Source of the DNA: Dietzia sp. NCCP-2495
GTDB lineage: Bacteria; Actinomycetota; Actinomycetes; Mycobacteriales; Mycobacteriaceae
Assembly: GCF_026011735.1 (NCBI RefSeq)
Contig: NZ_BRVN01000014.1
Coordinates: forward strand, 1-64,000
DNA: 64,000 nucleotides
Reading direction: 5' to 3'
A program made the translations under genes and the position numbers. This document shows, in pieces, positions 50,531 through 64,000 of this stretch (positions are counted from its first letter, which is position 1; every line of letters begins with the position of its first letter). Under the pieces are notes generated by a model. The model had not been told where the DNA came from. It made no database searches and saw only the letters and a list, made by a program, of their open reading frames with translations.

Positions 50531-52645
50531 CTACACCGTGGCGACCTTCCACGCCGAGTGGACCGCGCCGTGGATGTAGCCGACCTCGCCGGCGTCGCCG
50601 ATCACCTCGCACTCGATGCCCGCATCGCGGAGCTGGTCCGCGAGCGGCGCGGCCGCAGTGGTGCCGTCGGCGTAGATCACCATGTCCGCCGGCGCCGAGG
50701 CAGACTCGCCCTTGGCGGTGGTCCACTCCACGGACTGCTCGGTGATCCGGGTGACGGAGACGTTGCGCTGGATATCCACGCCGTGGTGCTTGGCGTGACG
50801 CACCGCGGTCCACCGCCGCGGCATGGCCAGCGGCAGGCCGAGCTGTTGCGAGTCGTGTAGCAGCGTGACGTTGCGGCCGCGCTCGCCGAGGAACTCCGCG
50901 AGCTCCAGGCCGACCAACGAGCCGCCGATCACCACGACGTTCTTGCCCATCGGCAGTGCGATCTTGGTGAGGTTGCGGATCCACGCCGGACGCTTGGTGA
51001 TCCCCGACAGACGGCCGAGCTTTCCGGCCAGCCGCAGGAAGGTCCCGGCCTCCTCCGCGGTGGCGGTACCGAGCATCGTCGCGCGCAGCGAGTCGCCGGT
51101 GTGCACGTGCGGAAGCTGGCCGCCCGGGATCTGTGGGGCCGGCCGCACCGCACCGGTCGCCACGATCACGCGGTCGGCGCCCAGCGCGCGCACGGTCTCC
51201 ACCGTGGCCTCGGTGTTCAGCCGGACGTCGATGCCCAGCTGGTCGATCTTGGCCTTGTAGAAGCTGATCAGCGGCTCGTTGGCCGGTGTGGTGAGCGTGG
51301 AGAACCACATGGTCCCGCCCAGCCGATCGGCCTTGTCGAGCACGGTCACGCGGTGCCCGCGCTCGGTCAGCACCACGGCCGACTCGAGTCCGGCGGGTCC
51401 GGCGCCCACCACCACGACGTGCTCGCGGGTGGGCGCGGGCGTCAACGGCAGCAGCCCCTCGTTGCCGAGCACCGGGTTGACGGCGCAGAACGGGGTGTCG
51501 TCGAAGAAGTTCTCGGCCACGCAGAGGTAACAGTTGATGCACGGACGCACCAGCTCGGGTGTGCCGGCCGCGAGCTTGTTAGGTAGTTCAGGGTCGGCGA
51601 GCAGTTGCCGACCCATGGCGGCGAAGTCGATCTTGTCGTCGTCGATCGCCTTCTCCGACACCTCCGGCAAAATCCGACCCACGCCGATCACCGGCACCGA
51701 CACCGCCTTCTTGATGGCGGCGGCGTTGTCCAGGTAGGCACCGACGGTGTCGGGCAGGGGGCCGTCGGTGAAGTTGTCGAACGGGTTGCGGCCCCAGCCG
51801 GTCACGTGGATCGCGTCGGCGCCGGCCTGCTCGAACAGCTGCGAGGCCAGGATCGCCTCGTCCAGCTCGAGCCCGCCCTCCTGGCCGTACTCCTGCCCGG
51901 CCACGCGCACTATCACGGCGAGCGTGTCCCCCACGCGCTTCTTGACTGCCTCGATCACCTCGCACGCCAGCCGCGCGCGATTGACCAGCGCTCCGCCGTA
52001 CTCGTCGGTGCGCTGGTTGTCTCGCCGGTTGAGGAACACGCCCAGGATGTAGCCGTGTGCGACGTGGATCTCGATCGCGTCGGCGCCGGCGCGGGCGATG
52101 CGGTCGGCGGCCTCGGCCCAGGTGTCGATGAGCCAGGCAATGTCCTCGTGGGTCATCTCCTTGTAGACGATCTGCTTGCCCGCGGTGGCGGCGCCCATGC
52201 GGGCCAGTTCGTCGGGAGTGCTGTCGGCGAGCGCGGAGTAGTCATAGTCGTAGTCCGGCATGCTCGGCGCGATCACGGGACGGTCATTGGCCACGTCCAC
52301 ACGCGCGACCTTGCCGTGGTGGGTGGACTGCACGCACAGTTTCGATCCGGCCGCGTGCACGGCGTCGGCCAGCGCCTTCAGTCCCGGGATGTACTTGTCG
52401 TCCGACAGTCCCGGTTCCTTCATCGACGCCGCACCCACCGGGAACGCGATCGCGCACGCGCCGGTGATGATCAGGCCCGCCCCGCCGGCCGCGCGGGCGA
52501 CGTAGTGGTCGATCTCCCGCTGCTCGATCTCGCCGTCCTCGGACACGTTCATGTCCATGGCCGGCAGGACGATGCGGTTGCGCGTCGACATGGGGCCGAT
52601 CCGGCCGGACGAGGTGAGGTTCGGGAAGGAGGCGAGGGTAGTCAC
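50531..52645 (-). CDS. NADH:flavin oxidoreductase/2,4-dienoyl-CoA reductase family (FadH-like)
   Basis: 704 residues, three-part flavoenzyme. The TIM barrel (1-370) binds FMN and holds HHGKVARVDVANDRPVIAPS, EIHVAHGYILGVFLNRRDNQRTDEYGG (catalytic His/Tyr region) and VIGVGRI. The 4Fe-4S cluster follows: RPCINCYLC and the fourth Cys in TPFCAVNP. The FAD/NAD domains come last (VVVVGAGPAGLESAVVL; VVVIGGSLVGLELAEFLGERG). It reduces alpha,beta-unsaturated acyl-CoA or a related enone. No neighbour shares its operon. Confidence 0.92.
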   Translation of the reverse strand: MTTLASFPNLTSSGRIGPMSTRNRIVLPAMDMNVSEDGEIEQREIDHYVARAAGGAGLIITGACAIAFPVGAASMKEPGLSDDKYIPGLKALADAVHAAGSKLCVQSTHHGKVARVDVANDRPVIAPSMPDYDYDYSALADSTPDELARMGAATAGKQIVYKEMTHEDIAWLIDTWAEAADRIARAGADAIEIHVAHGYILGVFLNRRDNQRTDEYGGALVNRARLACEVIEAVKKRVGDTLAVIVRVAGQEYGQEGGLELDEAILASQLFEQAGADAIHVTGWGRNPFDNFTDGPLPDTVGAYLDNAAAIKKAVSVPVIGVGRILPEVSEKAIDDDKIDFAAMGRQLLADPELPNKLAAGTPELVRPCINCYLCVAENFFDDTPFCAVNPVLGNEGLLPLTPAPTREHVVVVGAGPAGLESAVVLTERGHRVTVLDKADRLGGTMWFSTLTTPANEPLISFYKAKIDQLGIDVRLNTEATVETVRALGADRVIVATGAVRPAPQIPGGQLPHVHTGDSLRATMLGTATAEEAGTFLRLAGKLGRLSGITKRPAWIRNLTKIALPMGKNVVVIGGSLVGLELAEFLGERGRNVTLLHDSQQLGLPLAMPRRWTAVRHAKHHGVDIQRNVSVTRITEQSVEWTTAKGESASAPADMVIYADGTTAAAPLADQLRDAGIECEVIGDAGEVGYIHGAVHSAWKVATV

Positions 52646-52690
52646 GCTCTACGAGATTACGCCCAAGTCGACAGGTGTCAAGAATGGGTA

Positions 52691-53041
52691 CTAGCTGCGA
52701 TCCGGCGAGGTGGGACCCGGCCATGTGGGATCAGGCGACGTGGGATCTGACGCGGTGGGACCTATGCGGGGGTCGGCCGGGCGCGCGGGGCCTCGCCGCC
52801 TGGTGGCGACCAGGACGATCGCGCCGACGACGACAACGCACACCCCCCATCCGATCGCCAGGAAGCGGACCGCGAAGAAGGTCCCCCAGACCACATAGGT
52901 GTAGAGGTATCCCGGAACAAGGGACAGTGACGCCGGGATACCGAGCCCACTGAAGATCGCCATGCCCGCCATCGCGGCGACCCACCACAGCAGCAGGCCT
53001 CCGAACACCGACACCGCGGACACCGTGAGCGCTCGCGTCAT
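52691..53041 (-). CDS. Small membrane protein with Pro/Asp-rich tail
   Basis: 116 residues from ATG 53041 (GGGGGAG directly upstream). Three hydrophobic helices (VFGGLLLWWVAAMAGMAIF; TYVVWGTFFAVRFLAI; VCVVVVGAIVLVATR). The tail is a short-period repeat of the type TSPDPTWPGPTSPD, encoded by repeating GTGGGA-x-C blocks at 52705-52760. Function unknown. Confidence 0.65.
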   Translation of the reverse strand: MTRALTVSAVSVFGGLLLWWVAAMAGMAIFSGLGIPASLSLVPGYLYTYVVWGTFFAVRFLAIGWGVCVVVVGAIVLVATRRRGPARPADPRIGPTASDPTSPDPTWPGPTSPDRS

Positions 53042-53148
53042 CTCCCCCGCCGTCCCTTCATCCCGAAAATCGCGGACACAGCAAGCGCCGCGGCTTGAAC
53101 ACCTCGGGCACGGCAATTGCCGAAGTCGACACTGATCGCATGCTGATT

Positions 53149-53826
53149 TCAGTTCCCGATGTGCGTATTGGCACCCTTCGGCAGGCCGAACATCGGTCCT
53201 GTCGGGCTCATGGTTGCATCATGCACGACGAGTTCGGTGGGCACGCCATCGGGAATTGCGGCGCGAGGGCGATCACTGTCATCGGCGGTGACCGTCGGGT
53301 TCTGCCGCGCGATCACAACCCCGTTCTCATAATCGACGTATATCGACACCCTGGAGTCTTCGGCACTTGCCAGAGGATCCGTTCCCCGGTCATCACCGAG
53401 GATCATGGGTGCCCCCTGCCCGGAGAGTATCCGTGACGGATCCATGGACAGGTTCTGCACCTCCTCGCTGGGGATGTATAACCGGGTGCCCACCACACCC
53501 TGCCCGGGCTGCGACTCAATGGGAACCACGACTACCTCGGATTCCGCGCCCTGAGTCTTGTCCGAATAGGTATGGGGGTCGAGGGCGTCCGCCGTAATGA
53601 AGTCGGCCGGAGTCTGGGGCGGGCGTCCGGTCACCGGCGCGGGTCCGCGCCGCCCGTGCGCGTCGGTGCCGCCGGTGCGGTTGTACACCACCGAGATCCG
53701 GTATCTGCGCCGATCTCCGCACCCTGTGGAGGTGCGGCTGCGGACGACTGCTTGTCGAAACACGCCCCTTCGTCCCGTAATGCAGCGGGCCGGGGCTACG
53801 TCAGCGAGTCGAGGTAGTTCACCCAC
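53149..53826 (-). CDS. Orphan protein with lower GC, unclear start
   Basis: The frame is open from 53826, but the first ~45 residues are Arg-rich and overlap the next gene. The coding-like part begins near VVYNRTGGTDAHGRRG (GTG 53691). The C-terminal half, with IPSEEVQNLSMDPSRILSG, RVSIYVDYENGVVIARQNP and GPMFGLPKGANTHIGN, is well-behaved and beta-rich. Its base composition is visibly less GC-rich than the neighbours. No family recognised. It could be the C-terminal domain of a larger secreted or toxin-type protein whose 5' part is missing, or a recently acquired gene. Confidence 0.5.
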   Translation of the reverse strand: MGELPRLADVAPARCITGRRGVFRQAVVRSRTSTGCGDRRRYRISVVYNRTGGTDAHGRRGPAPVTGRPPQTPADFITADALDPHTYSDKTQGAESEVVVVPIESQPGQGVVGTRLYIPSEEVQNLSMDPSRILSGQGAPMILGDDRGTDPLASAEDSRVSIYVDYENGVVIARQNPTVTADDSDRPRAAIPDGVPTELVVHDATMSPTGPMFGLPKGANTHIGN

Positions 53827-54209
53827 CCACCGAAGTCGGTGATGTCCCGGGCGCCTGACACCGCGACGGGCTCCACCAGGAAGCCCGGGACCTCGCGACC
53901 GTCGCCGAGTTCCACCTTCCCGATAGCCATCGGCGCGGGCAGGCCGGCCACAAAGGTACCGAAGTCCGCGGCCGCGAGCTCCCAGATCTCCACCGCCTGT
54001 GCCCGTCCGCCGTTCGCTGTCCGGACCAGCCCCGGCTTGGGTGGATCTGTGGGCAGTGCGTACATGCGGTAGCGCGCTGCAGTGGTGGTGCTCTCGAGCA
54101 GCCGCGCGGACCGCTCCGTGAGCTGGTGGTTCAGGGGTTGACCCCCGAGGTGCGCTCCGGCCACCGCGAGGGGAATGCCCCCCGTCCGGCCGGGATCATC
54201 AGGTTTCAT
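53796..54209 (-). CDS. Allophanate hydrolase C-terminal domain as a separate protein
   Basis: 137 residues from ATG 54209, with AGGAGG five bases upstream. It matches the C-terminal domain of AtzF/DUR1,2-type allophanate hydrolases: LAVAGAHLGGQPLNHQLTERSARL, YRMYALPTDPPKPGLVRT, VEIWELAAADFGTFVAGLPAPMAIGKVEL and ITDFGGWVNYL (core parts GAHLGGQPLNHQL and PAPMAIGKVEL). This domain converts the carbamate intermediate left by the amidase. It is normally fused to the amidase; here the two genes overlap by 11 bp. Confidence 0.88.
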   Translation of the reverse strand: MKPDDPGRTGGIPLAVAGAHLGGQPLNHQLTERSARLLESTTTAARYRMYALPTDPPKPGLVRTANGGRAQAVEIWELAAADFGTFVAGLPAPMAIGKVELGDGREVPGFLVEPVAVSGARDITDFGGWVNYLDSLT

Positions 54210-55530
54210 CATGTCCTCCTTCGCGGGCCACGGCGACGAGACGGGCGTCCTCGAAGGCGTCGCCGATGAGCTGGATACCGAACGGCAACCCCGCGACCCG
54301 CCCGGCCGGCACCGCGAGGGCGCAGAGGTCCAGGAGGTTGGCGAAGTTGGTGAAGCGACCCATGCGGGCGTTGGTGCCCACGGGGTCGGCCGCGACCTCG
54401 TCGAGGGTCGGGTGGAACGTGGTGGTGGGCAGCACCAGCGCGTCGAGGCGACCGAACACCTCCCGCGCCCGCGCGCGGAACACGTCCAGGCGCGCCTGGT
54501 CAGCGAAGACCCGGTGGGCCGGGAGCTCGCCGGCCGCGGAGATGATGCCGCGCACCGTCGGGTCGACCTCCTGTGGGTTGGCGTCCACGAAGGCCCCGAC
54601 CGCGGCGTACCGCTCGGCGACGAACGCGCCCTCGTAGAGCAGCCTCGCGGCCTCGAGGAAGGGGGCGATGTCGACCTCCTCGGTGCGGAAGCCACGGTCG
54701 GCGAACCGCTGGACGGCCGCCGAGTAGGCCTCCCGCCAGCCCGGTGCCAACTCGCCCAGCTGCTCGGTCCGGGCGAACCCGATGGTCCGCTCGAGTGCCG
54801 CGGCCCTGTGCGTGCGCGCTGACCGGGACAGCGGGTCGTCGTCGTCAAGGCCGGTGATCACGTCCGCCGCGAGACGGGCGAGAGACAGGTCGCGCGCCAT
54901 CGTCGTCACCACGTCCTGGCTGCGACACGCGGGCACGACCCCCGTCGTGGGCACGAGGCCCTTGGTCGGCTTGACGCCGTAGAGACCGTGCAGGGCGGCG
55001 GGCACGCGTCCCGAACCGGCGGTGTCCGTGCCCAGGGCGAAGTCCACGACGCCCGTGGCGACGGCGACCGCCGAACCGCTGCTGGACCCGCCCGAGATCC
55101 GGGTGGGGTCCTCGGCGTGCCGGACCGCCCCGTACGGGCTGCGGGTGCCGACCAGTCCCGTGGCGAACTGGTCCAGGTTCGTGGTGCCCAGCACCACCGC
55201 GCCGGCGTCGCGGAGTCGACGGACCGCGACCGCGTCCCGGGCCGGCTCGTACCCGTAGGCCGGGCAGGCCGCCGTGGTGGTGGCACCGGCCACGTCGATG
55301 TTGTTCTTGACGGCGAACAGGGTGCCCGCCAGCGGCAGGTACTCCCCCTGCGCGCGGGCGGTCAGGGCCCGGGACACCTCCTGCGCGACCACCGAGCGGT
55401 CGCGCAGGGTGATCCACGCCTCCGGCCGATCGGCGCGCGCCAGGGTCTCGAACCGTCGGGCGACCAGGTCCTCGGCGGCGCGGCCGGCGTCGTCCGCGGT
55501 GTCCGGTCGGTGGTGGGTCAGGGTGCTCAT
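54199..55530 (-). CDS. atzF: Allophanate hydrolase, amidase domain
   Basis: 443 residues from ATG 55530 (GGGAGAG upstream). Amidase-signature enzyme: catalytic Lys in FAVKNNIDVAG, cis-Ser and Ser in RISGGSSSGSAVAVATG, and DTAGSGRVPAALHGLYGVKPT. The DLCALAVPAGRVAGLPFGIQLIG segment is characteristic of allophanate rather than generic amidases. It releases ammonia from allophanate. It stops short of the fused C-terminal domain, which follows as its own gene. Lies 15 bp after the carboxylase gene in one operon. Confidence 0.92.
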   Translation of the reverse strand: MSTLTHHRPDTADDAGRAAEDLVARRFETLARADRPEAWITLRDRSVVAQEVSRALTARAQGEYLPLAGTLFAVKNNIDVAGATTTAACPAYGYEPARDAVAVRRLRDAGAVVLGTTNLDQFATGLVGTRSPYGAVRHAEDPTRISGGSSSGSAVAVATGVVDFALGTDTAGSGRVPAALHGLYGVKPTKGLVPTTGVVPACRSQDVVTTMARDLSLARLAADVITGLDDDDPLSRSARTHRAAALERTIGFARTEQLGELAPGWREAYSAAVQRFADRGFRTEEVDIAPFLEAARLLYEGAFVAERYAAVGAFVDANPQEVDPTVRGIISAAGELPAHRVFADQARLDVFRARAREVFGRLDALVLPTTTFHPTLDEVAADPVGTNARMGRFTNFANLLDLCALAVPAGRVAGLPFGIQLIGDAFEDARLVAVAREGGHDET

Positions 55531-55545
55531 CAACTCTCCCATGTT

Positions 55546-58500
55546 CTAGACAGCGCTGCTGGTGAGGGTTCCGGATGCGGCGCCGAGCACGTCGTCGACG
55601 ACCGGGCGCAGCACCACGAGCACCGATCCCGGGGCCACCTGGGAGCCGGGTTCGGCCACCACACGCTCGACCACGCCGGCGGCCGGGGCGCGGACCTGGC
55701 TCTCCATCTTCATGGCCTCCACCGCCAGTAGCGACTGTCCCTCGTCCACCGTCTGGCCCACTTCCACGTCCACCCGGAAGACGATCGCCGAGAACGGCGA
55801 CTCGACGGCGTGGGCCCCCTCGGGGATCTCCACGGCCGACTCCTCCACACGGACGGTCTCCGCGAGCTCCGCGGCGCGGGTGAACTCCCCGCTGTCCTCC
55901 CAGCGCTGGCGCTCGGCGTCGAAGGCGTTCTGCTGACGGCGCTTGAAGTCGTCGATGCCCTCGCGGTGGTCCGCGAGGAACCGCTGGTACTCGGCCATCG
56001 AGAACTCCCCGTCCTCGATCCGGATCGGGAGCAGTCCGACCTCCATGTCCGCGCGCATCTCGGCGAGTTCCGCAGAGGAGACGGGGAACCACCGGATGCG
56101 GTCGAAGAACCGCAGCAGCCACGGGGTTCCGGGTGCGTAGGGTCCCCGCTGGCGGTGCGTGGACCAGACCTGGGTGGTCCGGCCGACGAACTGGTACCCG
56201 CCCGGACCCTCCATGCCGTAGATGCACAGGTACGAGCCGCCGATCCCCACGGCGTTCTGCGGCGTCCAGGTCCGTGCCGGGTTGTACTTGGTGGTGACGA
56301 GCCGGTGGCGGGGGTCCACCGGCGTGGCGACGGGCGCACCGAGGTACACGTCGCCCAGGCCGAGGACGAGGTATTCCGCGTCGAACAGCACGGACCGGAC
56401 GTCGTCGGTCGAGTCGAGCCCGTTGACCCTGCGGATGAACTCGATGTTCCACGGGGACCACGGGGCATCGTCGCGGACCCCCTTCTCGTACCGGCGGATC
56501 GCCTCGTGGGTCGAGGGGTCGTCCCAGGACATCGGCAGGTACACGGTGCGGCTGGGCACCTTGAGGTCGTGGGACGAGGGCAGCTCCGCGTCGGCGGCGA
56601 TGAGCACCTCGCAGGCCTCGTCGCAGCGGAGCGTGGCGGGATCGAGGTGCACCTGCAGGGACCGGATGCCCGGCGTCATCTCCAGCACCCCCTCGAGCCG
56701 GCCGGCGTCGACGAGGTCCTGGAGCGAGCGGCGGAGGACCTCCACGCGCATCCGGGATCCGATGTCCAGGCTCATCTCGCCGTACTCGGCGAGGACGTTG
56801 GAGTCCCCGCAGCGTCGGAGGGTCATCTCCGGACGGCCCTCGGTCGCGGGAACCCTCGCGATGATCCCTCCGTCGACGACGGGGGCCCTGCCCGCGGTGA
56901 CCTCGGCGGTCGGGTCGGCGCGCAGGGCATCGGCCTGGACCTGGGTGATGGGCACGAACCGGACGGTGTCCCCCGCCCGCAGCTGCCCCAGCTTCCATTT
57001 CTGCCCGTCCGCGATGGTGGCCGGGCACGTGAATCCGCCGAGGCTCGGACCATCCGGGCCCAGCAGGATGGGCATGTCCCCGGTGTAGTCGACGGCGCCC
57101 ACGGAGTACGGGGTGTCGTGGATGTTGGACGGGTGCATGCCGGCCTCGCCGCCGTCGCGACGTGCCCACTGCGGCTTGGGCCCGATGAGGCGGACGCCGG
57201 TCCGGTCGGAGTTGATGTGCACCTCCCAGCGGGCGGCGTAGAACTCCTCCATGTCCCCCACCGTGAAGAACTCGGGTGCCGCGTGCGGCCCCTCCAGGAC
57301 GCCGATCTCCCACTCGCTCCCGAACCGCGGGCGCTCGTGGGGCGGGACGTCCCGCACAAACTGCCCGGCGGCAGGGGCGTTGATGGGCACCACGTCCCCC
57401 GTGGCGACCGCGCGCCCGGTGGATCCCCCGATCGCCCCCTGCACGAACGTCGAGGCCGAGCCCATGACCAGCGGCACGTCCAGTCCGCCCTCGAGAAGGA
57501 GGTAGGACCGCGTCCCCCGTTCCACCGCACCCAGGTCCAGCTCGTCCCCGGCCCGCAACTCCAGCACCTCCCACCGGGCCACCGGGACGCCGTTCACCGT
57601 GGCGTCGACGGGCGCGCCCGTGAGGATCGCCCGCGTGTCGGAGTGGAAGCGCAGGGCGGGGCCCGCCATGGTGATCTCCAGGCCCGCCGCGCGCTCGGCA
57701 TTACCCAGCGCCCGGTTGCCCAGGAGGAAGGACAGCTCGTCCATCGGCCCCGACGGCGGGATGCCCACCGGCCAGTACCCGACGCGCCCCGGGTGGTCCT
57801 GGATCGTGGTCATGAGACCCGACCGCAGAACCTCGAGTCGACGGTCCACGCTGCGGACATCCTCGAGGGTGCGGGTCGAGTGCTCCGCCGCGGCCACCGA
57901 GTCCAGATCGACGACCGCGCGCAGCACACCCAGGTTGGTGGCCGGGCCGTGGATCCTCGCCTCCGCCAGCGCCTGTCGGAGGGTGGCCCAGGCCTCGTCG
58001 CGGGTCTCGCCGTATGCGATGAGCTTGGCCAGCAGCGGGTCGTAGTGGGCGCTCACCTCCGTGCCGATCTCGATCCAGGAGTCGACCCGCACGCCCTCGG
58101 GCACCGTGAGGCCGGTGACGGTCCCGGCGCTCGGCCGGTTGTCGAGGTCGGTGTTCTCCGCGTAGACCCGGGCCTCGACGGCCGCGCCCCGCGGCGCCGG
58201 CTCCGTGTCGAACATGGCGGTGTCGCCGCCGGCGAGCCGCACCATCCACCCGACGAGGTCGATCCCGTACACCGCCTCGGTCACCGGGTGCTCGACCTGC
58301 AGCCGGGTGTTGACCTCGAGGAACGACACGGACTGCCGGGCCGGGTCGTAGATGAACTCCACCGTCCCCGCGGAGCGGTAGTCGACGGAGGCGCACAGGG
58401 TCCGCGCGGCCTCGTGCATCCGGGTGCGCACCGCGTCCGGGAGCGCGGGGGCGGGGGCCTCCTCCACCACCTTCTGGTGCCGGCGTTGCAGGGTGCAGTC

Positions 58501-59193
58501 GCGGTCGCCGAGGACCATGACGCGACCCTCGCCGTCGCCGAAGACCTGCACCTCCACGTGTCGGGCGTGGTCCACCAGACGCTCGAGGAAGACGCCCGCC
58601 GACGCGAAGTTGGCACCGGCCACCCGCCGGACGCCGTCCCAGCCGTCCCGAAGGTCCTCCGGGCCGCGGCAGGCCGCCATGCCGATGCCCCCGCCGCCCG
58701 CCGTGGCCTTGAGCATGACCGGATAGCCGATCGCGTCCGCGGCCGCGAGGGCGTCCTCCACGCTGTCCAGCACGCCGGTGCCCGCCAACAGTGGCACGTC
58801 CGCGGCCTCCGCGGCGGCGCGGGCGGTGTGCTTGGTGCCGAAGACCGACAGCTGGTCGACCGTGGGGCCGATGAAGGCGATCCCGGCGGCCTCACAGGCG
58901 GCGGCGAACTCGGTGCTCTCGGACAGGAAGCCGTACCCCGGGTGGATGGCGTCCGCGCCGGACTCGCGGGCCGCGGCGATCACGGCGTCCGTGTCGAGGT
59001 AGCTCTGGTCGGCCGGCGCCGGGCCGAGGCGGACCGCGCGGTCGGCGGCGGTCGCGTGCAACGCCCCGCGGTCCGCGTCGGAGAACACGGCCACGGACTC
59101 GAGGCCCATGGAGCGGAGGGTCCGGATGATGCGGACGGCTATCTCGCCGCGGTTGGCCACGAGGACGGTCCGCAGGGTGGGGGTGGTCGTCAT
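55546..59193 (-). CDS. Biotin-dependent guanidine (or urea) carboxylase
   Basis: 1215 residues from ATG 59193 (GAGGAGA upstream). Biotin carboxylase domain, about 1-450: VLVANRGEIAVRIIRTL, KATAGGGGIGMAACRG, FLEVNTRLQVEHPVTEAVYGIDLV. Carboxyltransferase (KipA/AHS-type) regions, about 470-1010: TIQDHPGRVGYWPVGIPPSGPMD, GFTCPATIADGQKWKLGQL, EYGEMSLDIGSRMR. The rest contains NPARTWTPQNAVGIGGSYLCIYGMEGPGGYQFVGRT. The C-terminal BCCP holds the biotinyl Lys in AVEAMKMESQV. The companion DUF1989 genes point to guanidine as substrate, giving carboxyguanidine; enzymes of this gene context were long called urea carboxylase. Confidence 0.93.
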   Translation of the reverse strand: MTTTPTLRTVLVANRGEIAVRIIRTLRSMGLESVAVFSDADRGALHATAADRAVRLGPAPADQSYLDTDAVIAAARESGADAIHPGYGFLSESTEFAAACEAAGIAFIGPTVDQLSVFGTKHTARAAAEAADVPLLAGTGVLDSVEDALAAADAIGYPVMLKATAGGGGIGMAACRGPEDLRDGWDGVRRVAGANFASAGVFLERLVDHARHVEVQVFGDGEGRVMVLGDRDCTLQRRHQKVVEEAPAPALPDAVRTRMHEAARTLCASVDYRSAGTVEFIYDPARQSVSFLEVNTRLQVEHPVTEAVYGIDLVGWMVRLAGGDTAMFDTEPAPRGAAVEARVYAENTDLDNRPSAGTVTGLTVPEGVRVDSWIEIGTEVSAHYDPLLAKLIAYGETRDEAWATLRQALAEARIHGPATNLGVLRAVVDLDSVAAAEHSTRTLEDVRSVDRRLEVLRSGLMTTIQDHPGRVGYWPVGIPPSGPMDELSFLLGNRALGNAERAAGLEITMAGPALRFHSDTRAILTGAPVDATVNGVPVARWEVLELRAGDELDLGAVERGTRSYLLLEGGLDVPLVMGSASTFVQGAIGGSTGRAVATGDVVPINAPAAGQFVRDVPPHERPRFGSEWEIGVLEGPHAAPEFFTVGDMEEFYAARWEVHINSDRTGVRLIGPKPQWARRDGGEAGMHPSNIHDTPYSVGAVDYTGDMPILLGPDGPSLGGFTCPATIADGQKWKLGQLRAGDTVRFVPITQVQADALRADPTAEVTAGRAPVVDGGIIARVPATEGRPEMTLRRCGDSNVLAEYGEMSLDIGSRMRVEVLRRSLQDLVDAGRLEGVLEMTPGIRSLQVHLDPATLRCDEACEVLIAADAELPSSHDLKVPSRTVYLPMSWDDPSTHEAIRRYEKGVRDDAPWSPWNIEFIRRVNGLDSTDDVRSVLFDAEYLVLGLGDVYLGAPVATPVDPRHRLVTTKYNPARTWTPQNAVGIGGSYLCIYGMEGPGGYQFVGRTTQVWSTHRQRGPYAPGTPWLLRFFDRIRWFPVSSAELAEMRADMEVGLLPIRIEDGEFSMAEYQRFLADHREGIDDFKRRQQNAFDAERQRWEDSGEFTRAAELAETVRVEESAVEIPEGAHAVESPFSAIVFRVDVEVGQTVDEGQSLLAVEAMKMESQVRAPAAGVVERVVAEPGSQVAPGSVLVVLRPVVDDVLGAASGTLTSSAV

Positions 59194-59194
59194 G

Positions 59195-59827
59195 TCAGTT
59201 CTCCTCGTCGGCGGCACCGGTGATGACCATCTCGACCGCGGTCGGATGGAAGCCGTTGCACGGGTTGTTGACCTGCGGGCAGTTGGAGACGATCACGAGC
59301 GTGTCGCGCTCGGCCCGCAGGCTCACCGACAGTCCCGGCGCGGAGATGCCGTCGACGATCCCCAGGGCGCCGTCCGGGTCGACCGGCACGTTCATGAACC
59401 AGTTGACGTTGGAGACCTGGTCGCGCCGCCCCAGCCCGTGCCGGGACAGCTCGAGCAGGAAGTTGTCCGCGCAGCCGTGTTGGCTCCAGGTGTGGTGTCC
59501 GTAGCGCAGGGTGTTGGACTCCTTCGAGCAGGCGCCCCCGAGGGTGTCGTGGCGTTCGACGTCGGTGGCGACCACGGTGAGCAGCGGGTCGTACTCGTTG
59601 GTCCGGAGCACGGACCCGGCGGTGAGGAACACCGAGTCCTGCCCTTGCAGGGTGGCCTGGGCGCTGTACGCGCGGGCGGTGTCGTGGGCGTCGTAGGCGA
59701 GGAAGTCGACGGCCTGGTTGCCCTCGAGGTCGACGATCGTGAGCGTCTGGCCCGCCTTCAACACGGCCGACCAGGGTCCCCGCGGGGGCACGGTCTCGCG
59801 GCGCAGGACGGAGTCGTGGATGGTCAT
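59195..59827 (-). CDS. DUF1989 protein (UAAP2 type), carboxyguanidine deiminase subunit
   Basis: 210 residues from ATG 59827 (AAGGAG upstream). DUF1989 fold with conserved metal-site residues: LEGNQAVDFLAYDA, GGACSKESNTLRYG, HGCADNFLLEL and NCPQVNNPCNGFHPT (several Cys/His). Proteins of this family next to urea carboxylase genes were shown to be subunits of carboxyguanidine deiminase (CgdA/CgdB), making allophanate and ammonia. Its stop is one base before the carboxylase ATG. Confidence 0.88.
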   Translation of the reverse strand: MTIHDSVLRRETVPPRGPWSAVLKAGQTLTIVDLEGNQAVDFLAYDAHDTARAYSAQATLQGQDSVFLTAGSVLRTNEYDPLLTVVATDVERHDTLGGACSKESNTLRYGHHTWSQHGCADNFLLELSRHGLGRRDQVSNVNWFMNVPVDPDGALGIVDGISAPGLSVSLRAERDTLVIVSNCPQVNNPCNGFHPTAVEMVITGAADEEN

Positions 59828-59850
59828 CTGTGGGCTCCTTGGATAGTGGG

Positions 59851-60702
59851 TCAGGCCAGGCCGGCGGCGCGGAGGTACTCGAGGGTGTTCTCGTGGGCTC
59901 GTCGGCGTTCCGGATCGAGCTCGGCGATCGGGGCACCGGACGAGCCACCCGCGCCGCGGTGGGCCAGGACGTCCACCGGGGTGTTCACGTACTCCGCCCG
60001 CGGGTCCAGGGGGTGGGCGGCGTTGGCGATCAGGGCGATCACCGGCATCTCGGTGACGATCGAGACGGTGGCGCCGGGCCCCGCGGACCCCGTGAACTCC
60101 GGTCGCCCGTCGGCGGTGATGTTCACGCCCTGGAAGAACGACAGCGCGGGCGGGATGTCCCGGCGGTTGAGGCCGTACTTCAGGCCGGCCACGGTGAGCA
60201 GCTCGCGGCCAGCGGGGCTCGGCCCGTGGACCTGGCCGTCGCCGTAGCGTTCCTCGTTGCGGGCCCGGCTGCTGGGGCCGTACAGGCCGTCGTGACGGCC
60301 CGACGTGTCCTCCAGCACGGTGGCCAGCGCGCGACCGGACGCCGAGAGCAGCACCTGCCCCACCGCGCTGTACACCTGCCACTGGATCTTCATGGTGTCG
60401 GCCACGTTGAGCCGCTCGGCGGTGTCCGCCGCGTTGTACAGGACGACCGAGGCGCACGCGTCGCCCTCGACGTCGGTCAGTCGCAGGACCGTGCCCCGGT
60501 CGAGCAGCCGGTGCGAGTAGTTCCCGCCGGCGATCCGCTCGGCCCACACGATGTCGAGCGGGCCGCCGTCGGCGTCCGTGGTCTGCACCTGCGTCGACGG
60601 GACCGTGGGCCGCGCGTCGACCACGGTGCCCTCCTGCGCCCGCGCGTGATCGCGGGCGGCGCTGGTGGTCGCGGTCGACGAGCCCGCCTGTGTTGTCGTC
60701 AT
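59851..60702 (-). CDS. DUF1989 protein (UAAP1 type), carboxyguanidine deiminase subunit
   Basis: 283 residues, the longer partner of the pair. After a Thr/Ala-rich start: GGNYSHRLLDRGTVLRLTDVEGDACASVVLYNAADTAERLNVADT (core VEGDACASVVLYNA), TSGRHDGLYG, LNRRDIPPALSFFQGVNI and VALIANAAHPLDPR-like residues. AGGAGGG precedes the ATG at 60702. First gene of the operon, divergent from the TetR gene, with the operator-like repeat at 60718-60750 between them. Confidence 0.88.
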   Translation of the reverse strand: MTTTQAGSSTATTSAARDHARAQEGTVVDARPTVPSTQVQTTDADGGPLDIVWAERIAGGNYSHRLLDRGTVLRLTDVEGDACASVVLYNAADTAERLNVADTMKIQWQVYSAVGQVLLSASGRALATVLEDTSGRHDGLYGPSSRARNEERYGDGQVHGPSPAGRELLTVAGLKYGLNRRDIPPALSFFQGVNITADGRPEFTGSAGPGATVSIVTEMPVIALIANAAHPLDPRAEYVNTPVDVLAHRGAGGSSGAPIAELDPERRRAHENTLEYLRAAGLA

Positions 60703-60717
60703 CTCCGTGCCCTCCTA

Positions 60718-60750
60718 CTGTTTTCTATCGGTTGATCTAAAGTGAAACAG
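60718..60750. promoter_or_regulatory. Operator-like repeat before the guanidine operon, AmtR-like
   Basis: CTGTTT (60718-60723) and AAACAG (60745-60750) form an inverted repeat around TTTCTATCGGTTGATCTAAA. That core resembles the AmtR box of corynebacteria (TTTCTAT-N6-ATAGA-like) in the left half but differs in the right. It overlaps the minus-strand -10 region (TTTAGAT), so a TetR repressor bound here would block the operon. Confidence 0.5.
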
Positions 60751-60850
60751 CGGCGTGTTGCGCCACCGTTGGGCCGCAGTTTCGTACGTGTTACGTCGCG
60801 CCCCACGGCCGCTGCCGTGGCCGCGACCAGGCGATTGCTACTCTCGGCGG

Positions 60851-61531
60851 GTGACCAAGTACCGCGGGCGGCCCCGCCGCAACCCCGGGTCGCCGACCGG
60901 GCTCGGCAGCGAGGCGGACATCCTGCACGCCGCCGGGGAGCTGTTCGTCACCCGGGGATTCGGTCGCACCAGCACCCGCGCGATCGCCGAGGGCGCCGGC
61001 CTGCAGCAGGCCAGCGTCTACCACTGGTTCGGATCCAAGGACGCGATCCTCCTGCGGCTGGTGCTGGGCACCGTCGTCCCCTCCCGCCACGTCGCGGACG
61101 AGTTGGTGGGTTCCGGGTCCCCCGCGCACGTCCTGCTGTGGGCCCTGGCGTACTCGGACGCCACGGTCCTGTGCGAGGACCCGCAGAACCTGGGGGTGCT
61201 GTACTTCGATCCGGAGCTCGACGGCGACCGCTTCCGCGAGTTCCACGAGGTGCGAGTCCGTCTGCACGACTGCTACCGGGTCCTGCTCGACCGGACGACG
61301 GGCGCCACGGCCACCGAGGTGGACGTGGCGATGGTGGTGGGCCTGGTGGAGAACGTCATCACCTACCGACGGCGCTCGCCCTCGCCGATCCCCGCGGACA
61401 CGCCCGAGCGCATCGCCGACGCAGTGCTGACGCTGGCGCGGGTCCCCCACCTGGTCACCGATGAGACGCGGGCCCGGGGAGTCGAGGTGCTCGCTGCTCT
61501 CGACTCCCCGGGCCCGGGGTCTGCCCGCTGA
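60851..61531 (+). CDS. TetR-family regulator of the guanidine/urea operon
   Basis: 226 residues from GTG 60851. Helix-turn-helix: GLGSEADILHAAGELFVTRGFGRTSTRAIAEGAGLQQASVYHWFGSKDAILL (core TRAIAEGAGLQQASVYHWFGSK). A TACTCT -10 box (60839-60844) six bases upstream suggests a leaderless transcript. Divergent placement makes it the probable regulator of the DUF1989-carboxylase-hydrolase operon. It may be an AmtR relative, since AmtR controls a urea amidolyase-type operon in M. smegmatis. Confidence 0.88.
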   Translation: MTKYRGRPRRNPGSPTGLGSEADILHAAGELFVTRGFGRTSTRAIAEGAGLQQASVYHWFGSKDAILLRLVLGTVVPSRHVADELVGSGSPAHVLLWALAYSDATVLCEDPQNLGVLYFDPELDGDRFREFHEVRVRLHDCYRVLLDRTTGATATEVDVAMVVGLVENVITYRRRSPSPIPADTPERIADAVLTLARVPHLVTDETRARGVEVLAALDSPGPGSAR

Positions 61532-61560
61532 CGCCGACCAGGGCCGACGGGCGGGGCGGG

Positions 61561-63099
61561 TCAGGCTCTCGCGGCGACCTCCGCGGTCGGGCGGGCCGCG
61601 GTGTCCTCCGCGAGGGTGGCCTCCGCGAGGGCCGCGGTGTCTGGCGTCCGCGGCTGCTCCGGTCCGACGGGCGCCGCCCCGGGTCCCGCGGTCCGCGTGT
61701 CATAGGCGGCCACGGCCACGTAGACCACGAGTGACACCCCGGCGGCGAGGAACGTCGTCCAGCCGTCCACGCTCTGGGTCACCACGTCGTTGGGGACGTA
61801 GGCCAGCGTGTTCTCCACGCCGTAGATGGTGGGGGTGAACACGAAGAAGCCCAGCCGCACCCCGAGCCCCAGGATGGTCGAGATCACCAGCGCCCTCGTA
61901 CTGACCAGCCGCGTCCACAGCGACAGGACGAACGGCGCCACGATACTCGCGCACAGCAGGTCGAAGGTCAGCGTGAGCAGGATGCCCGTGTGGTTGACCC
62001 GCAGTGCCACCAGGACCCCGATCGCGGCGACGGGCACCATGGCCAGGCGGGAGGCCTGGAGCACGCTCACCGGTAGCGTCCGAGTGTGCAGCACGGTGCC
62101 CACCACGATGGACGAGGACGCCAGGAGGATTCCGCTCACCGTGGTGAGCGAGGCCGCCAGCAGACCCGAGACGACCAACATCGCCACCGGCGTGGGCACC
62201 TGCCCGGCCAGGAGCTGGAAGAGGATCGGCGCGTCGGTGGCGCCGTCGCCGAGCAGGCCGACCCCGGTCACCGCCACGGCGGCGAGCGGGACACACAGGA
62301 TCACCGTTCCGGCTGCGGCGATCAGGCTCGCCGCCCGGGCGCCGCGGGCGTTCCGGGAGGAGGACACCCGCTGGAAGACGTCGATGGCCACCAGGTTGCC
62401 GAAGCCCAGCGCGAACAGCGTCGCCCAGTTGATCACCGAACCCGCTGCCTGGTCGGTCACCTGCTCGAGGTCCGCGATGCCGAGCCCGGCCGGGGCGCTG
62501 TACCCGGGGCCGAGGAACAACCACAGCGAGATCCCGACGAACCCGACCACCATGATCGCCATGACGAACACGCCCGTGTACACCGACGCGAACATCCCGC
62601 CGACCATCGTGTAGGCCAGGATCGCGACGGTGACGACGACGATCGCCACCCAGTACGGCACGCCCAGGAAGTGGTCCATCATGTGGCCCAGGGCGACGAG
62701 GTTGCCCGCCATGAGGATCCCGAAGCTGGCGACGGTCAGGACGGCGCACAGGATCTCACCGGTCCGTCCGAACCGCCCGCGGAAGTACTCGGGCAGCGAG
62801 TACAGCTCGAGTGCGCGGACCTTTTTGGCCACGAACAGGCCCATCATGAGGAATGACAGAGCGAGCCCCAGCGGCATCGCCGCCCCGGCCCAGAAGCCGA
62901 AGCCGCCGGCCAGGTCCGCCGCGCCCACGGTCGCGTTGGAGTCGATCACCTGGGACATGAGCAGGACGGCCACCAGGGGCACGGCGAGCGAGCGCCCCGC
63001 GACGGCGAAATTGCGGTTCTCACCCCGGACCCTGCGTGAGGACGACAGGCCCAGGACGACGAGGACGAGGACGGTCGCCCCGATTGCTGCGCTGATCAT
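61561..63099 (-). CDS. Sodium:solute symporter family transporter
   Basis: 512 residues, about thirteen membrane helices of the LeuT-fold SSS family: ENRNFAVAGRSLAVPLVAVLLMSQVIDSNATVGAADLAGGFGFWAG (helix 1 region; key part AVAGRSLAVPL), LYSLPEYFRGRFG and GLLAASLTTVSGILLASSSIVVG (helix 8 sodium-site region, LAASLTTVSGI). The C-terminal tail is Ala/Pro/Glu-rich. Coupled to the oxygenase gene by ATGA. Substrate not readable; by context a guanidino compound, guanidine or urea. Confidence 0.88.
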   Translation of the reverse strand: MISAAIGATVLVLVVLGLSSSRRVRGENRNFAVAGRSLAVPLVAVLLMSQVIDSNATVGAADLAGGFGFWAGAAMPLGLALSFLMMGLFVAKKVRALELYSLPEYFRGRFGRTGEILCAVLTVASFGILMAGNLVALGHMMDHFLGVPYWVAIVVVTVAILAYTMVGGMFASVYTGVFVMAIMVVGFVGISLWLFLGPGYSAPAGLGIADLEQVTDQAAGSVINWATLFALGFGNLVAIDVFQRVSSSRNARGARAASLIAAAGTVILCVPLAAVAVTGVGLLGDGATDAPILFQLLAGQVPTPVAMLVVSGLLAASLTTVSGILLASSSIVVGTVLHTRTLPVSVLQASRLAMVPVAAIGVLVALRVNHTGILLTLTFDLLCASIVAPFVLSLWTRLVSTRALVISTILGLGVRLGFFVFTPTIYGVENTLAYVPNDVVTQSVDGWTTFLAAGVSLVVYVAVAAYDTRTAGPGAAPVGPEQPRTPDTAALAEATLAEDTAARPTAEVAARA

Positions 63100-64000
63100 T
63101 TCGATTCTCCAACCAGTGAGGACTCGCGTCCGAGCGAGTACAGGGGGCGGGCTCCGTCAGGGAGGACGAGGTCACCGGCCTCGATCCGCCTCCTGAGGTA
63201 GGCGAAGCTCTGGGCGGTCTGGGCGAACAGGTGCTCGCCGGCGTGCAGCGGTTCGTAGCGGGCGACGTCGGAGTCGGACACCGTCAGGGGGCTGACCACC
63301 GTGTCGTAGTCGACGCTGAAGAACAGCGGGTACGAGTAACGCTCCTCGGCGACCTTCCGCACCCGGTGGGAGGTGGCCACGAACGCGCCGTTGGTCCACA
63401 CCTCGAGCAGGTCCCCGATGTTGACCACGATCGCGTCCTCCCGGTAGGGGACGTCGATCCAGTCGCCGCGTCCGTTCATCACCTCCAGCCCGGGCGCGGT
63501 GGGCTTGAGGAGGGTCAGCGCCTCGTAGTCGGTGTGCGCCCCGATCCCCGGCCGGTCGCGGGCGTCGGGGTTGTACGGGTAGTGAATGAGCCGCAGCTGC
63601 GACGGGGGCTGTGTCACCGAGCCGAGGAACGTGGCGGGGTCGAGCTCGAGATAGCGCGCGAACGCCGCGAGCAGCCGAGACCCGAGACCGAAGACCTCGT
63701 CGTAGTACTCCGTCACCGCCTCGGCGAATCCCGGCAGGTCGGGCCACTGGTTGGGGCCCAGGAGCGGGTTGCCCGCCAGGTATTCCGGATGGTCGGCGGG
63801 CAGGTCGATGGACAGGTCGTAGGCCTCCTTGAGGTCCGGGGTGGCGCCGGCGAACACCTCCTCCCCGATCGGCACGTAGCCGCGGTGGTTGCTGGAGTTG
63901 CCGATGTACACCTCGTGTTTGACGACGTCGGGCTGGGCGAAGAACCGCTGCGCGGCCTCGTGCAGCGCCCGGAAGGTCTCGTCGGGCACCCCGTGGTTGA
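63096..64000 (-). CDS. 2-oxoglutarate/Fe(II) oxygenase, isopenicillin N synthase family (5' end beyond window)
   Basis: At least 301 residues. The frame is open to the window end, where NHGVPDE is the conserved 'NHGV' element of the family, so the N-terminus is missing. Iron ligands: His and Asp in GIGAHTDYEALTLL and the distal His in FVATSHRV; 2-oxoglutarate ligands in ERYSYPLFFSVDY (R-x-S). Also YPYNPDARDRPG and NIGDLLEVWTNG. Relatives hydroxylate amino acids, nucleobases or guanidino compounds. Coupled by ATGA to the symporter, so its substrate is probably imported. Confidence 0.9.
   Translation of the reverse strand, partial: NHGVPDETFRALHEAAQRFFAQPDVVKHEVYIGNSSNHRGYVPIGEEVFAGATPDLKEAYDLSIDLPADHPEYLAGNPLLGPNQWPDLPGFAEAVTEYYDEVFGLGSRLLAAFARYLELDPATFLGSVTQPPSQLRLIHYPYNPDARDRPGIGAHTDYEALTLLKPTAPGLEVMNGRGDWIDVPYREDAIVVNIGDLLEVWTNGAFVATSHRVRKVAEERYSYPLFFSVDYDTVVSPLTVSDSDVARYEPLHAGEHLFAQTAQSFAYLRRRIEAGDLVLPDGARPLYSLGRESSLVGESK

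Follow-up and report, generated by a model that had tools for sequence, protein, structure and literature searches.

Recently, an MgdH/MgdL methylguanidine demethylase has been described in the salt-loving Vreelandella boliviensis (Sinn et al., 2025, PMC12508155). In this bacterium MgdL acts as an N-(hydroxymethyl)guanidine lyase with Asp49 and Arg51 as catalytic residues, and Trp, Glu and Asp bind the guanidine group inside its beta-barrel (PMC12508155). According to the same text, known guanidine-producing reactions are limited in number; the hemiaminals derived from arginine and homoarginine decay spontaneously, whereas N-(hydroxymethyl)guanidine is long-lived and is served by MgdL. Guanidine carboxylase requires two Asp residues, at K. 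lactis positions 1330 and 1584 (PMC11410670). Since the MgdH/MgdL pair has already been described in V. boliviensis, the Dietzia locus studied here looks like its actinobacterial version, and we consider it probable that this locus encodes a methylguanidine assimilation system of two transcription units that are probably co-regulated.

Gene by gene, locus L084 is laid out like the operon published for V. boliviensis (Gd-I riboswitch, ABC genes, two DUF1989 genes, Gd-II riboswitch, gca, mgdH, mgdL, atzF). Of the primers given in PMC12508155, mgdL forward and mgdH reverse align to L084 with 0 mismatches and mgdH forward with 4, and the L084 MgdH was used as a stand-in for V. boliviensis MgdH in identity comparisons. 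The genes and riboswitches of L037 are as in L084, except that further genes separate mgdL from atzF.

Organization of the Dietzia locus

The window, i.e., the whole stretch of DNA analysed, comprises the first 64,000 nt of a contig (G000:C14) of Dietzia sp. NCCP-2495. Here a guanidine carboxylase operon adjoins overlapping genes for a 2-oxoglutarate (2OG) oxygenase and a sodium:solute symporter (SSS), and the features of the locus are as follows.

53796..54212, minus strand: AH_C (PF21986), allophanate hydrolase C-terminal domain, a separate ORF (Pfam E 5e-49)
54199..55542, minus strand: amidase part of allophanate hydrolase, AtzF N-terminal domain (TIGR02713, 521.8 bits, cut-off 511)
55546..59193, minus strand: predicted guanidine carboxylase, 1215 aa (Pfam domains; TIGR02712, 1710 bits, cut-off 1304)
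59195..59827, minus strand: predicted carboxyguanidine deiminase subunit, DUF1989, UAAP2 (TIGR03424, 310.5 bits, cut-off 284.7)
59851..60702, minus strand: predicted carboxyguanidine deiminase subunit, DUF1989, UAAP1 (TIGR03425, 261.6 bits, cut-off 205.95)
60717..60741, plus strand: candidate operator between the divergent UAAP1 and tetR genes (21/25 bases common to the mgdL promoter element)
60851..61531, plus strand: TetR-family regulator (PF00440), transcribed away from UAAP1 and towards the symporter gene
61561..63099, minus strand: SSS symporter (PF00474), proposed methylguanidine/guanidine importer, conserved in position after mgdH
63096..64145, minus strand: MgdH-type 2OG/Fe(II) oxygenase (PF14226 and PF03171; 59% to L037/L084 MgdH; tree)
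64138..64863, minus strand: MgdL-type lyase (resemblance to MgdL, Asp-x-Arg kept)
64876..64900, minus strand: partner candidate operator before mgdL (shared element)

Every gene named in the original prediction is present, including the two DUF1989 genes beside the carboxylase gene, and its picture of the locus needs two amendments. Firstly, tetR lies on the other strand between the symporter and DUF1989 genes, which divides the locus into two transcription units and rules out its reading as a single operon. Secondly, the cassette has a third gene: the oxygenase gene crosses the window end (63096..64000 lie within), and the lyase gene, located wholly beyond it, has 8 bp in common with the start of the oxygenase gene. 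The oxygenase stop and the symporter start share ATGA, so the overlap underlying the claimed translational coupling of these two genes is real.

The guanidine carboxylase operon

The Dietzia carboxylase is full length, with biotin carboxylase, carboxyltransferase and biotin carrier parts. In an alignment to the K. lactis urea amidolyase chain 5i8i, D702 corresponds to K. lactis position 1330 and D948 to position 1584, the latter mapped by hand count. Because both signature Asp residues are present, the enzyme is predicted to be a guanidine rather than a urea carboxylase, and the reading as urea amidolyase was rejected on account of these two positions. Both DUF1989 subunits also exceed the cut-offs of the UAAP1 and UAAP2 models, in agreement with what the original prediction had deduced from these genes. 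The allophanate hydrolase is encoded by two overlapping ORFs; the AH_C ORF begins within the 3' end of the amidase ORF, with AAGGAGG preceding ATGATG.

The oxygenase and its lyase partner

The 2OG/Fe(II) oxygenases are recognized by an HxD...H iron triad and an Arg-x-Ser motif for 2OG. The Dietzia enzyme carries DIOX_N and 2OG-FeII_Oxy domains; H204, D206 and H260 are invariant across eight aligned oxygenases, and R269 and S271 across five. Over 338 aa it is 59% identical to the L037 oxygenase, and likewise 59% over 338 aa to the L084 MgdH. In a tree of 39 rows it shares a 27-row clade (support 98/95) with gca-linked halomonad-type oxygenases, including those of L037 and L084, apart from other IPNS-type oxygenases. 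This tree is midpoint-rooted and limited by long outgroup branches; its rows consist of segments hit by tblastn, from which unknown residues were removed, and one L069 HSP was dropped as well. It covers loci before L087 and omits 26 loci, mostly repeats of loci already included; all three D. natronolimnaea copies (L006, L011, L022) are among the omitted loci, and V. boliviensis and 9ovh are absent.

The lyase is more divergent. It shares 23% identity overall with L037 MgdL, and pairwise BLASTP gives a modest match (32% over 111 aa, 32 bits, E 4e-6); a profile built from the Dietzia and Jiella lyases retrieves the L037 gene at 3.6e-8, and the PDB search returned no convincing relative (best E 0.22). 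Nevertheless, D41 and R43 align with D49 and R51 of L037 MgdL (positions counted by hand). Nine aligned MgdL-type proteins all keep W32, Q34, D41 and R43, along with further residues, and the W-x-Q...D-x-R motif occurs in 17/17 loci (L087-L103). W32, W93, W132, E121, E130 and D107 are also invariant in the nine proteins and are candidates, by residue type, for the guanidine-binding Trp, Glu and Asp.

By homology to the V. boliviensis pair, we infer MgdH and MgdL activities for the two Dietzia proteins. The original prediction had pointed to an arginine-type substrate for the oxygenase; in this reading, arginine, homoarginine or agmatine would be hydroxylated beside the guanidine nitrogen to a product that decays to guanidine, as in the ethylene-forming enzyme and plant 2-ODD-C23 enzymes. 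These belong to the same superfamily, their guanidine would likewise feed the carboxylase pathway, and the best PDB match of the Dietzia oxygenase, 9ovh, is named an ethylene/succinate-forming enzyme (E 6e-56, 41% by match-line count). However, the gca-linked MgdH proteins are closer than 9ovh, and other chains with that name are far weaker matches (9eir at 5.5e-23; 5lun and the like at about 5e-17 over about 175 residues). Moreover, an MgdL-type lyase is paired with the oxygenase in 7/7 Dietzia loci, whereas arginine-type chemistry should need no lyase, and no semialdehyde-handling gene was seen within 61561-64863. Both the resemblance to MgdH and the presence of a lyase partner led us to reject the homoarginine/agmatine reading, and we regard arginine-type chemistry as very unlikely.

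The low identity and modest score of the lyase mean that the MgdL substrate could have shifted. MgdH/MgdL-type chemistry might then act on another N-alkylguanidine, such as N,N-dimethylguanidine or a compound derived from creatine/creatinine, and methylguanidine would be a minor substrate; V. boliviensis MgdH also accepts N,N-dimethylguanidine (PMC12508155), and creatininase occurs in the operons of some MgdL-like genes (L034, L038). Against this, the catalytic pair and several polar and aromatic MgdL residues are invariant, no creatininase was seen among the genes inspected by eye around the Dietzia locus, and levels of hydroxylated dimethylguanidines were insensitive to V. boliviensis MgdL (PMC12508155). 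Such a shift seems rather unlikely, if less so than an arginine-type substrate, and methylguanidine remains the preferred one.

Distribution and linkage in other genomes

The MgdL-type lyase was found in 35 of 351 family genomes. UAAP1 is present in 33 of these 35 genomes vs 195 of the 316 without the lyase (Fisher p 2.6e-5, shared ancestry ignored). Among the 35, lyase and UAAP1 lie within 20 kb of each other in 18, share a contig at a greater distance in 8 and fall on different contigs in 7, while UAAP1 is absent from 2. In L106 the deiminase, carboxylase, AtzF, MgdL, MgdH, SSS and TetR genes all stand in one row. The symporter gene directly follows mgdH in 7/7 Dietzia loci and in 11 of 13 other family loci fetched, and we propose that its product imports methylguanidine. 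The original prediction had suggested a survey of this kind, and the oxygenase-symporter pair does recur with DUF1989-carboxylase operons; it was mistaken in counting the oxygenase as an unusual member, as MgdH-MgdL operons were published in 2025 and are recurrent in the family searched.

It could be argued that the oxygenase unit is unrelated to guanidine, e.g., a pyrimidine oxygenase with its permease, and stands beside the carboxylase operon by chance. In 6 of the 7 cassette-bearing Dietzia genomes the cassette is not shown adjoining the carboxylase operon (lyase-UAAP1 gaps of about 99 kb, about 101 kb and about 2 Mb in three genomes; different contigs in three drafts), and thymine dioxygenase is a distant relative of the oxygenase (E 1e-23, PDB search). 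The MgdH/MgdL pair also occurs in L079-L081 and L108 with no carboxylase in the fetched stretch. Chance is nonetheless extremely unlikely in view of the linkage within 20 kb described above, of the halomonad-type loci L050-L065, where the fetched 3.7 kb include a gene for a carboxylase or for AtzF in 16/16 cases, and of Jiella (L008), where a guanidine-I riboswitch is followed by the MgdH/MgdL pair and then an agmatinase-like ureohydrolase gene. A promoter element common to both Dietzia units speaks further for a functional connection to guanidine.

TetR and the shared promoter element

The 25-bp elements before mgdL and in the UAAP1/tetR region agree at 21 positions, which was reached in 0 of 2000 mononucleotide shuffles (shuffle maximum 20). 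A 23-bp core pattern derived from both sites has no third site genome-wide at up to 3 mismatches. The start of TetR was set by the conserved VTK-RGRPRR start, and D. cercidiphylli and two further Dietzia genomes have a TetR orthologue (81-83%) next to mgdLH.

In seven Dietzia promoters the block upstream of mgdL can be made out by eye. Comparison of the tetR and mgdL upstream regions in L005, L023 and L024 yielded no shared element apart from a single unrelated 12-mer in L023; in L005 and L023 the pattern, at six mismatches, occurs only ahead of mgdL. The best match in L107 is at chance level (200 shuffles), and that in L111 is 15/20, a figure without shuffle control. Since the shared element was not found in these relatives, the case for co-repression through it comes from the window strain.

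No guanidine riboswitch was found with E up to 1 at window positions 52000-64000, at the gathering score in L003 (59001-79000) or in four related actinobacterial loci (L104, L106, L107, L110); the search of these four loci also took in L084 and L083, where it detected Gd-I and Gd-II. Probably, TetR represses both transcription units through the shared candidate operator and takes the place of the riboswitches.

Proposed pathway

In the first unit (mgdL-mgdH-symporter), methylguanidine would enter via the SSS symporter. MgdH would hydroxylate its methyl group to give N-(hydroxymethyl)guanidine, which MgdL, using its Asp-x-Arg acid-base pair, would cleave to guanidine and formaldehyde. The formaldehyde may be removed by a mycothiol-dependent formaldehyde dehydrogenase; such an enzyme is encoded elsewhere in the genome (TIGR03451, 691 bits, cut-off 513). 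In the second unit, guanidine carboxylase would convert guanidine to carboxyguanidine, the DUF1989 heteromer would deiminate it to allophanate, and the two-piece allophanate hydrolase would release ammonia and CO2, with ammonia serving as nitrogen source. TetR, encoded between the units, may repress both through the common element. The outline of import, oxidation, carboxylation, deimination and hydrolysis given by the original prediction is probably right, with methylguanidine a more likely substrate than homoarginine or agmatine.

Implications

What is most likely new here is the actinobacterial host together with a predicted importer and regulator of other types than in the known MgdH/MgdL system. 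No actinobacterial MgdH/MgdL locus is described among the titles and abstract starts listed from open-licence PMC text, and a count of "Actinobacteria" and "Actinomycet" in the main text of PMC12508155 gives 0 for both. A broader generalization is possible, though we hold it as doubtful: that Actinobacteria use a sodium-driven SSS importer and a TetR that senses guanidine/methylguanidine and co-represses the demethylation and carboxylase units via a shared operator, and that the carboxylase of many relatives is carboxyltransferase-only and must rely on another enzyme for its biotin carboxylase and carrier domains. If true, a protein-based guanidine switch would do the work of riboswitches, and the importer would be of neither the ABC nor the APC type, the two that the literature consulted names for guanidine.

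The locus bears on what guanidine and its methylated forms do in nature. A recurrent mgdL-mgdH-symporter cassette in Actinobacteria would extend methylguanidine use beyond the halophilic genera of PMC12508155, supply a specific candidate importer and protein regulator, and allow automatic annotations in Dietzia and related genera, where these genes appear as urea carboxylase or as an unnamed oxygenase and lyase, to be corrected.

Comparison with known systems

Like V. boliviensis MgdH/MgdL, the Dietzia locus combines a 2OG oxygenase (59% to the L084 stand-in), an Asp-x-Arg lyase and a link to guanidine carboxylase. Unlike it, the host is actinobacterial, the lyase has diverged (23% to L037) and is encoded before the oxygenase, an SSS symporter stands in place of the ABC importer, and tetR and two transcription units are found with no riboswitch detected. 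The second unit resembles the guanidine carboxylase pathway (Gca, CgdA/B, AtzF; PMC11410670, PMC12186494) in its TIGR02712 carboxylase with both Asp residues, both DUF1989 proteins and the allophanate hydrolase domains, but differs from the pathway of those texts in that no riboswitch was found and the allophanate hydrolase is split into two overlapping ORFs. With the ethylene-forming enzyme and plant homoarginine-6-hydroxylases (2-ODD-C23; PMC11018352), the Dietzia oxygenase shares the 2OG/Fe(II) superfamily and a predicted guanidine product, 9ovh being 41% identical; it departs from them, as they are presented there, in having a lyase partner and a different predicted substrate and co-product, formaldehyde.

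Gene organization at the locus

The contig is 80,019 bp long; the window takes up bases 1-64000, and the sequence beyond the window end was read as well. Two transcription units, both on the minus strand, make up the locus, with tetR between them:

64138-64863, minus: predicted MgdL-like gene, 241 aa, without Pfam or NCBIfam match (unit 1)
63096-64145, minus: 2-oxoglutarate (2OG) oxygenase, 349 aa (unit 1)
61561-63099, minus: sodium:solute symporter, SSS (unit 1)
60851-61531, plus: TetR gene, between units 1 and 2
59851-60702, minus: UAAP1 (unit 2)
59195-59827, minus: UAAP2 (unit 2)
55546-59193, minus: carboxylase (unit 2)
54199-55542, minus: allophanate hydrolase amidase (unit 2)
53796-54212, minus: allophanate hydrolase C-terminal domain (unit 2)

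The 241-aa and oxygenase genes overlap by 8 bp, and the oxygenase and symporter genes by 4 bp (ATGA). Allophanate hydrolase is split into two overlapping ORFs (53796-55542), with an AAGGAGG site ahead of the second start; it is a single ORF in the comparison loci L041 and L037. Past the window end, the same contig carries a SAM-IV riboswitch (G000:C14:77017-77130, minus) and a TPP riboswitch (77504-77598, plus).

The oxygenase and its lyase partner

Stand-ins for the Vreelandella boliviensis proteins MgdH (2OG oxygenase) and MgdL (N-(hydroxymethyl)guanidine lyase) were taken from the family of genome G073, whose label "halomonad-type" rests on primer match and gene layout. Locus L084 of this type contains, in order, a guanidine-I riboswitch, ABC genes, two DUF1989 genes, a guanidine-II riboswitch, gca, mgdH, mgdL and atzF, as in the published V. 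boliviensis layout (PMC12508155). Of the published primers, mgdL forward and mgdH reverse fit L084 with 0 mismatches and mgdH forward with 4. L037 shares these genes and riboswitches, but additional genes separate its mgdL from atzF.

Identity of the window oxygenase to the MgdH of both L084 and L037 is 59% (338 aa), and to the Jiella oxygenase also 59%; two other actinobacterial oxygenases reach 33-38%. A point against an MgdH assignment is its top PDB match, 9ovh, which is named ethylene/succinate-forming enzyme (E 6e-56); at 41% it is less similar than the MgdH equivalents, and further chains with this name are only remotely similar (9eir, 5.5e-23; 5lun and similar chains, ~5e-17). In a tree of 39 rows, from which 9ovh is absent, the window oxygenase falls in a 27-row clade (support 98/95) together with halomonad-type, Jiella and other family oxygenases. 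Judged from its sequence, the oxygenase is MgdH-like. The halomonad-type oxygenases of L066-L071 fall outside this clade; they belong to a second, diverged MgdH/MgdL pair in six genomes, with MgdH ~40-44% identical to the window protein.

The 241-aa protein shares W32, Q34, D41, R43, F77, G79, W93, D107, G109, E121, Y128, E130 and W132 with eight homologues, and D41/R43 align with D49/R51 of the L037 MgdL. Overall identity to the latter is 23% (pairwise BLASTP 32% over 111 aa, E 4e-6), and the protein is predicted to be MgdL-like. Its identity to Dietzia relatives is only 53-59%, against ~79-86% for mgdH, the symporter and tetR.

The carboxylase operon

The window carboxylase passes TIGR02712, a model named urea carboxylase. 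According to PMC11410670, guanidine carboxylases are set apart by Asp at K. lactis position 1330, and Asp at 1584 is also required. In alignment with K. lactis urea amidolyase (5i8i), Asn1330 corresponds to window D702 and Asp1584 to D948 (counted by hand); both were confirmed in the translated carboxylase. The DUF1989 proteins pass the UAAP1 and UAAP2 subunit models. These findings support the original prediction of a guanidine rather than a urea carboxylase.

A full-length carboxylase occurs in the window, L106, L107, L109 and L111. Other Dietzia and some other family members have a carboxyltransferase-only form of 656-670 aa that lacks both the biotin carboxylase and the biotin carrier domains, as judged in L041-L048 from tblastn coverage and in L041 and L042 also by Pfam:

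L041:9197-11179, Dietzia (Pfam)
L042:9041-11020, Dietzia (Pfam)
L104:7571-9541 and L110:11580-13592, other family members

A different protein would have to supply what this form is missing; a shared acyl-CoA carboxylase alpha subunit may do so. Gene by gene, the window operon is ~45-70% identical to those of L041-L049. This low identity, together with the different carboxylase architecture, suggests that the window operon stems from a different lineage than the other Dietzia operons.

Co-occurrence in Dietzia and the wider family

MgdL was found in 7/23 genus genomes, with MgdH and the symporter alongside in all seven. UAAP1 exceeds the cut-off in nine of the 23, namely 7/7 with MgdL versus 2/16 without (Fisher p 1.5e-4, or 4.9e-4 if fragmented G019 is counted, shared ancestry ignored). 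In the wider family, 35/351 genomes have MgdL, and a UAAP1 match is present in 33/35 with versus 195/316 without it (p 2.6e-5; over cut-off 31/35 versus 183/316, p 1.8e-4; shared ancestry again ignored). The survey proposed with the original prediction does find the oxygenase and symporter together with DUF1989-carboxylase operons.

Among the seven Dietzia, the units are shown side by side only in the window strain, which counts against the proposed reading; lyase and UAAP1 are ~99 kb apart in G013, ~101 kb in G016 and ~2 Mb in G009, and on different contigs in three drafts. In the 35 family genomes, MgdL and UAAP1 lie within 20 kb on the same contig in 18, farther apart on the same contig in 8 and on different contigs in 7, and UAAP1 is missing from 2. 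Among 13 non-Dietzia loci (L091-L103; the other 15 non-Dietzia MgdL genomes yielded no locus in this search), MgdH is adjacent in 12, the symporter in 11 and a carboxylase-pathway gene inside the fetched stretch in 10. L106 holds UAAP1, UAAP2, carboxylase, AtzF, MgdL, MgdH, SSS and TetR in a single row, and L107 a divergent two-unit arrangement with TetR. No carboxylase was found in the fetched stretches of L079-L081 and L108, which have the MgdL-MgdH pair. The originally noted link of the oxygenase and symporter to the guanidine locus stands and exceeds chance.

In L079-L081 (family genus g2), a peptide-type ABC transporter was recognised by eye, and L081 has metallo-beta-lactamase-fold, amidohydrolase and isochorismatase-like genes by Pfam.

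Contexts outside the family

In the halomonad-type family, the MgdL profile matches in 18/201 genomes. In each of the 16 best loci (L050-L065), the 3.7 kb fetched include MgdH (53-59%) together with a gene for carboxylase or AtzF. MgdL occurs in at least 8/398 genomes of Jiella's phylum and at least 5/396 of the window genome's phylum (Jiella and the window genome counted), figures that rest on few candidates scored per genome.

The Jiella locus (L008) combines a guanidine-I riboswitch, a TIGR03427 substrate-binding protein (putative urea ABC transporter), MgdH and MgdL with an ABC permease and ATPase recognised by eye. It also holds a ureohydrolase that falls short of the agmatinase cut-offs, for which guanidine hydrolase is a plausible function. 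In the same phylum, L034, L035, L036 and L038 have MgdL-like genes in operons, with a guanidine-I riboswitch in the L034-L036 stretches; creatininase family genes were confirmed in L034 and L038, and a link between creatinine and guanidine use in such operons is possible. At L082:8786-10649 (G801), an MgdL-like gene adjoins a Rieske ring-hydroxylating oxygenase, and the stretch gave no match to MgdH; the two may be a demethylase pair built on a different kind of oxygenase.

Regulation

Searches for guanidine riboswitches gave none at the window locus or in L104, L106, L107 and L110. Between the UAAP1/tetR intergenic region and the mgdL promoter, 21/25 bases agree, a match reached by 0/2000 mononucleotide shuffles (maximum 20). 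The 23-bp core pattern was derived from these two sites, which match it perfectly by construction, and at up to 3 mismatches the genome contains no further site. In seven Dietzia promoters the block upstream of mgdL can be made out by eye, but only the window strain yielded the copy upstream of tetR. TetR may repress both units.

Proposed pathway and comparison with the published system

The symporter would act as importer. By homology to characterised enzymes, MgdH would hydroxylate the substrate and MgdL would then fragment the product. Formaldehyde may be cleared by S-(hydroxymethyl)mycothiol dehydrogenase, encoded elsewhere in the genome. Carboxylation, deimination and hydrolysis would follow the known pathway, whose signature residues are present. 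The guanidino-compound route originally predicted is right in outline but lacks the lyase, which was missed because its gene lies wholly outside the window. The arginine-type substrates then proposed are probably wrong; methylguanidine is the likeliest substrate, and another N-alkylguanidine its main rival. The locus is an actinobacterial variant of the system published in 2025 for V. boliviensis MgdH/MgdL, from which it differs in importer type and probably also in regulator type.
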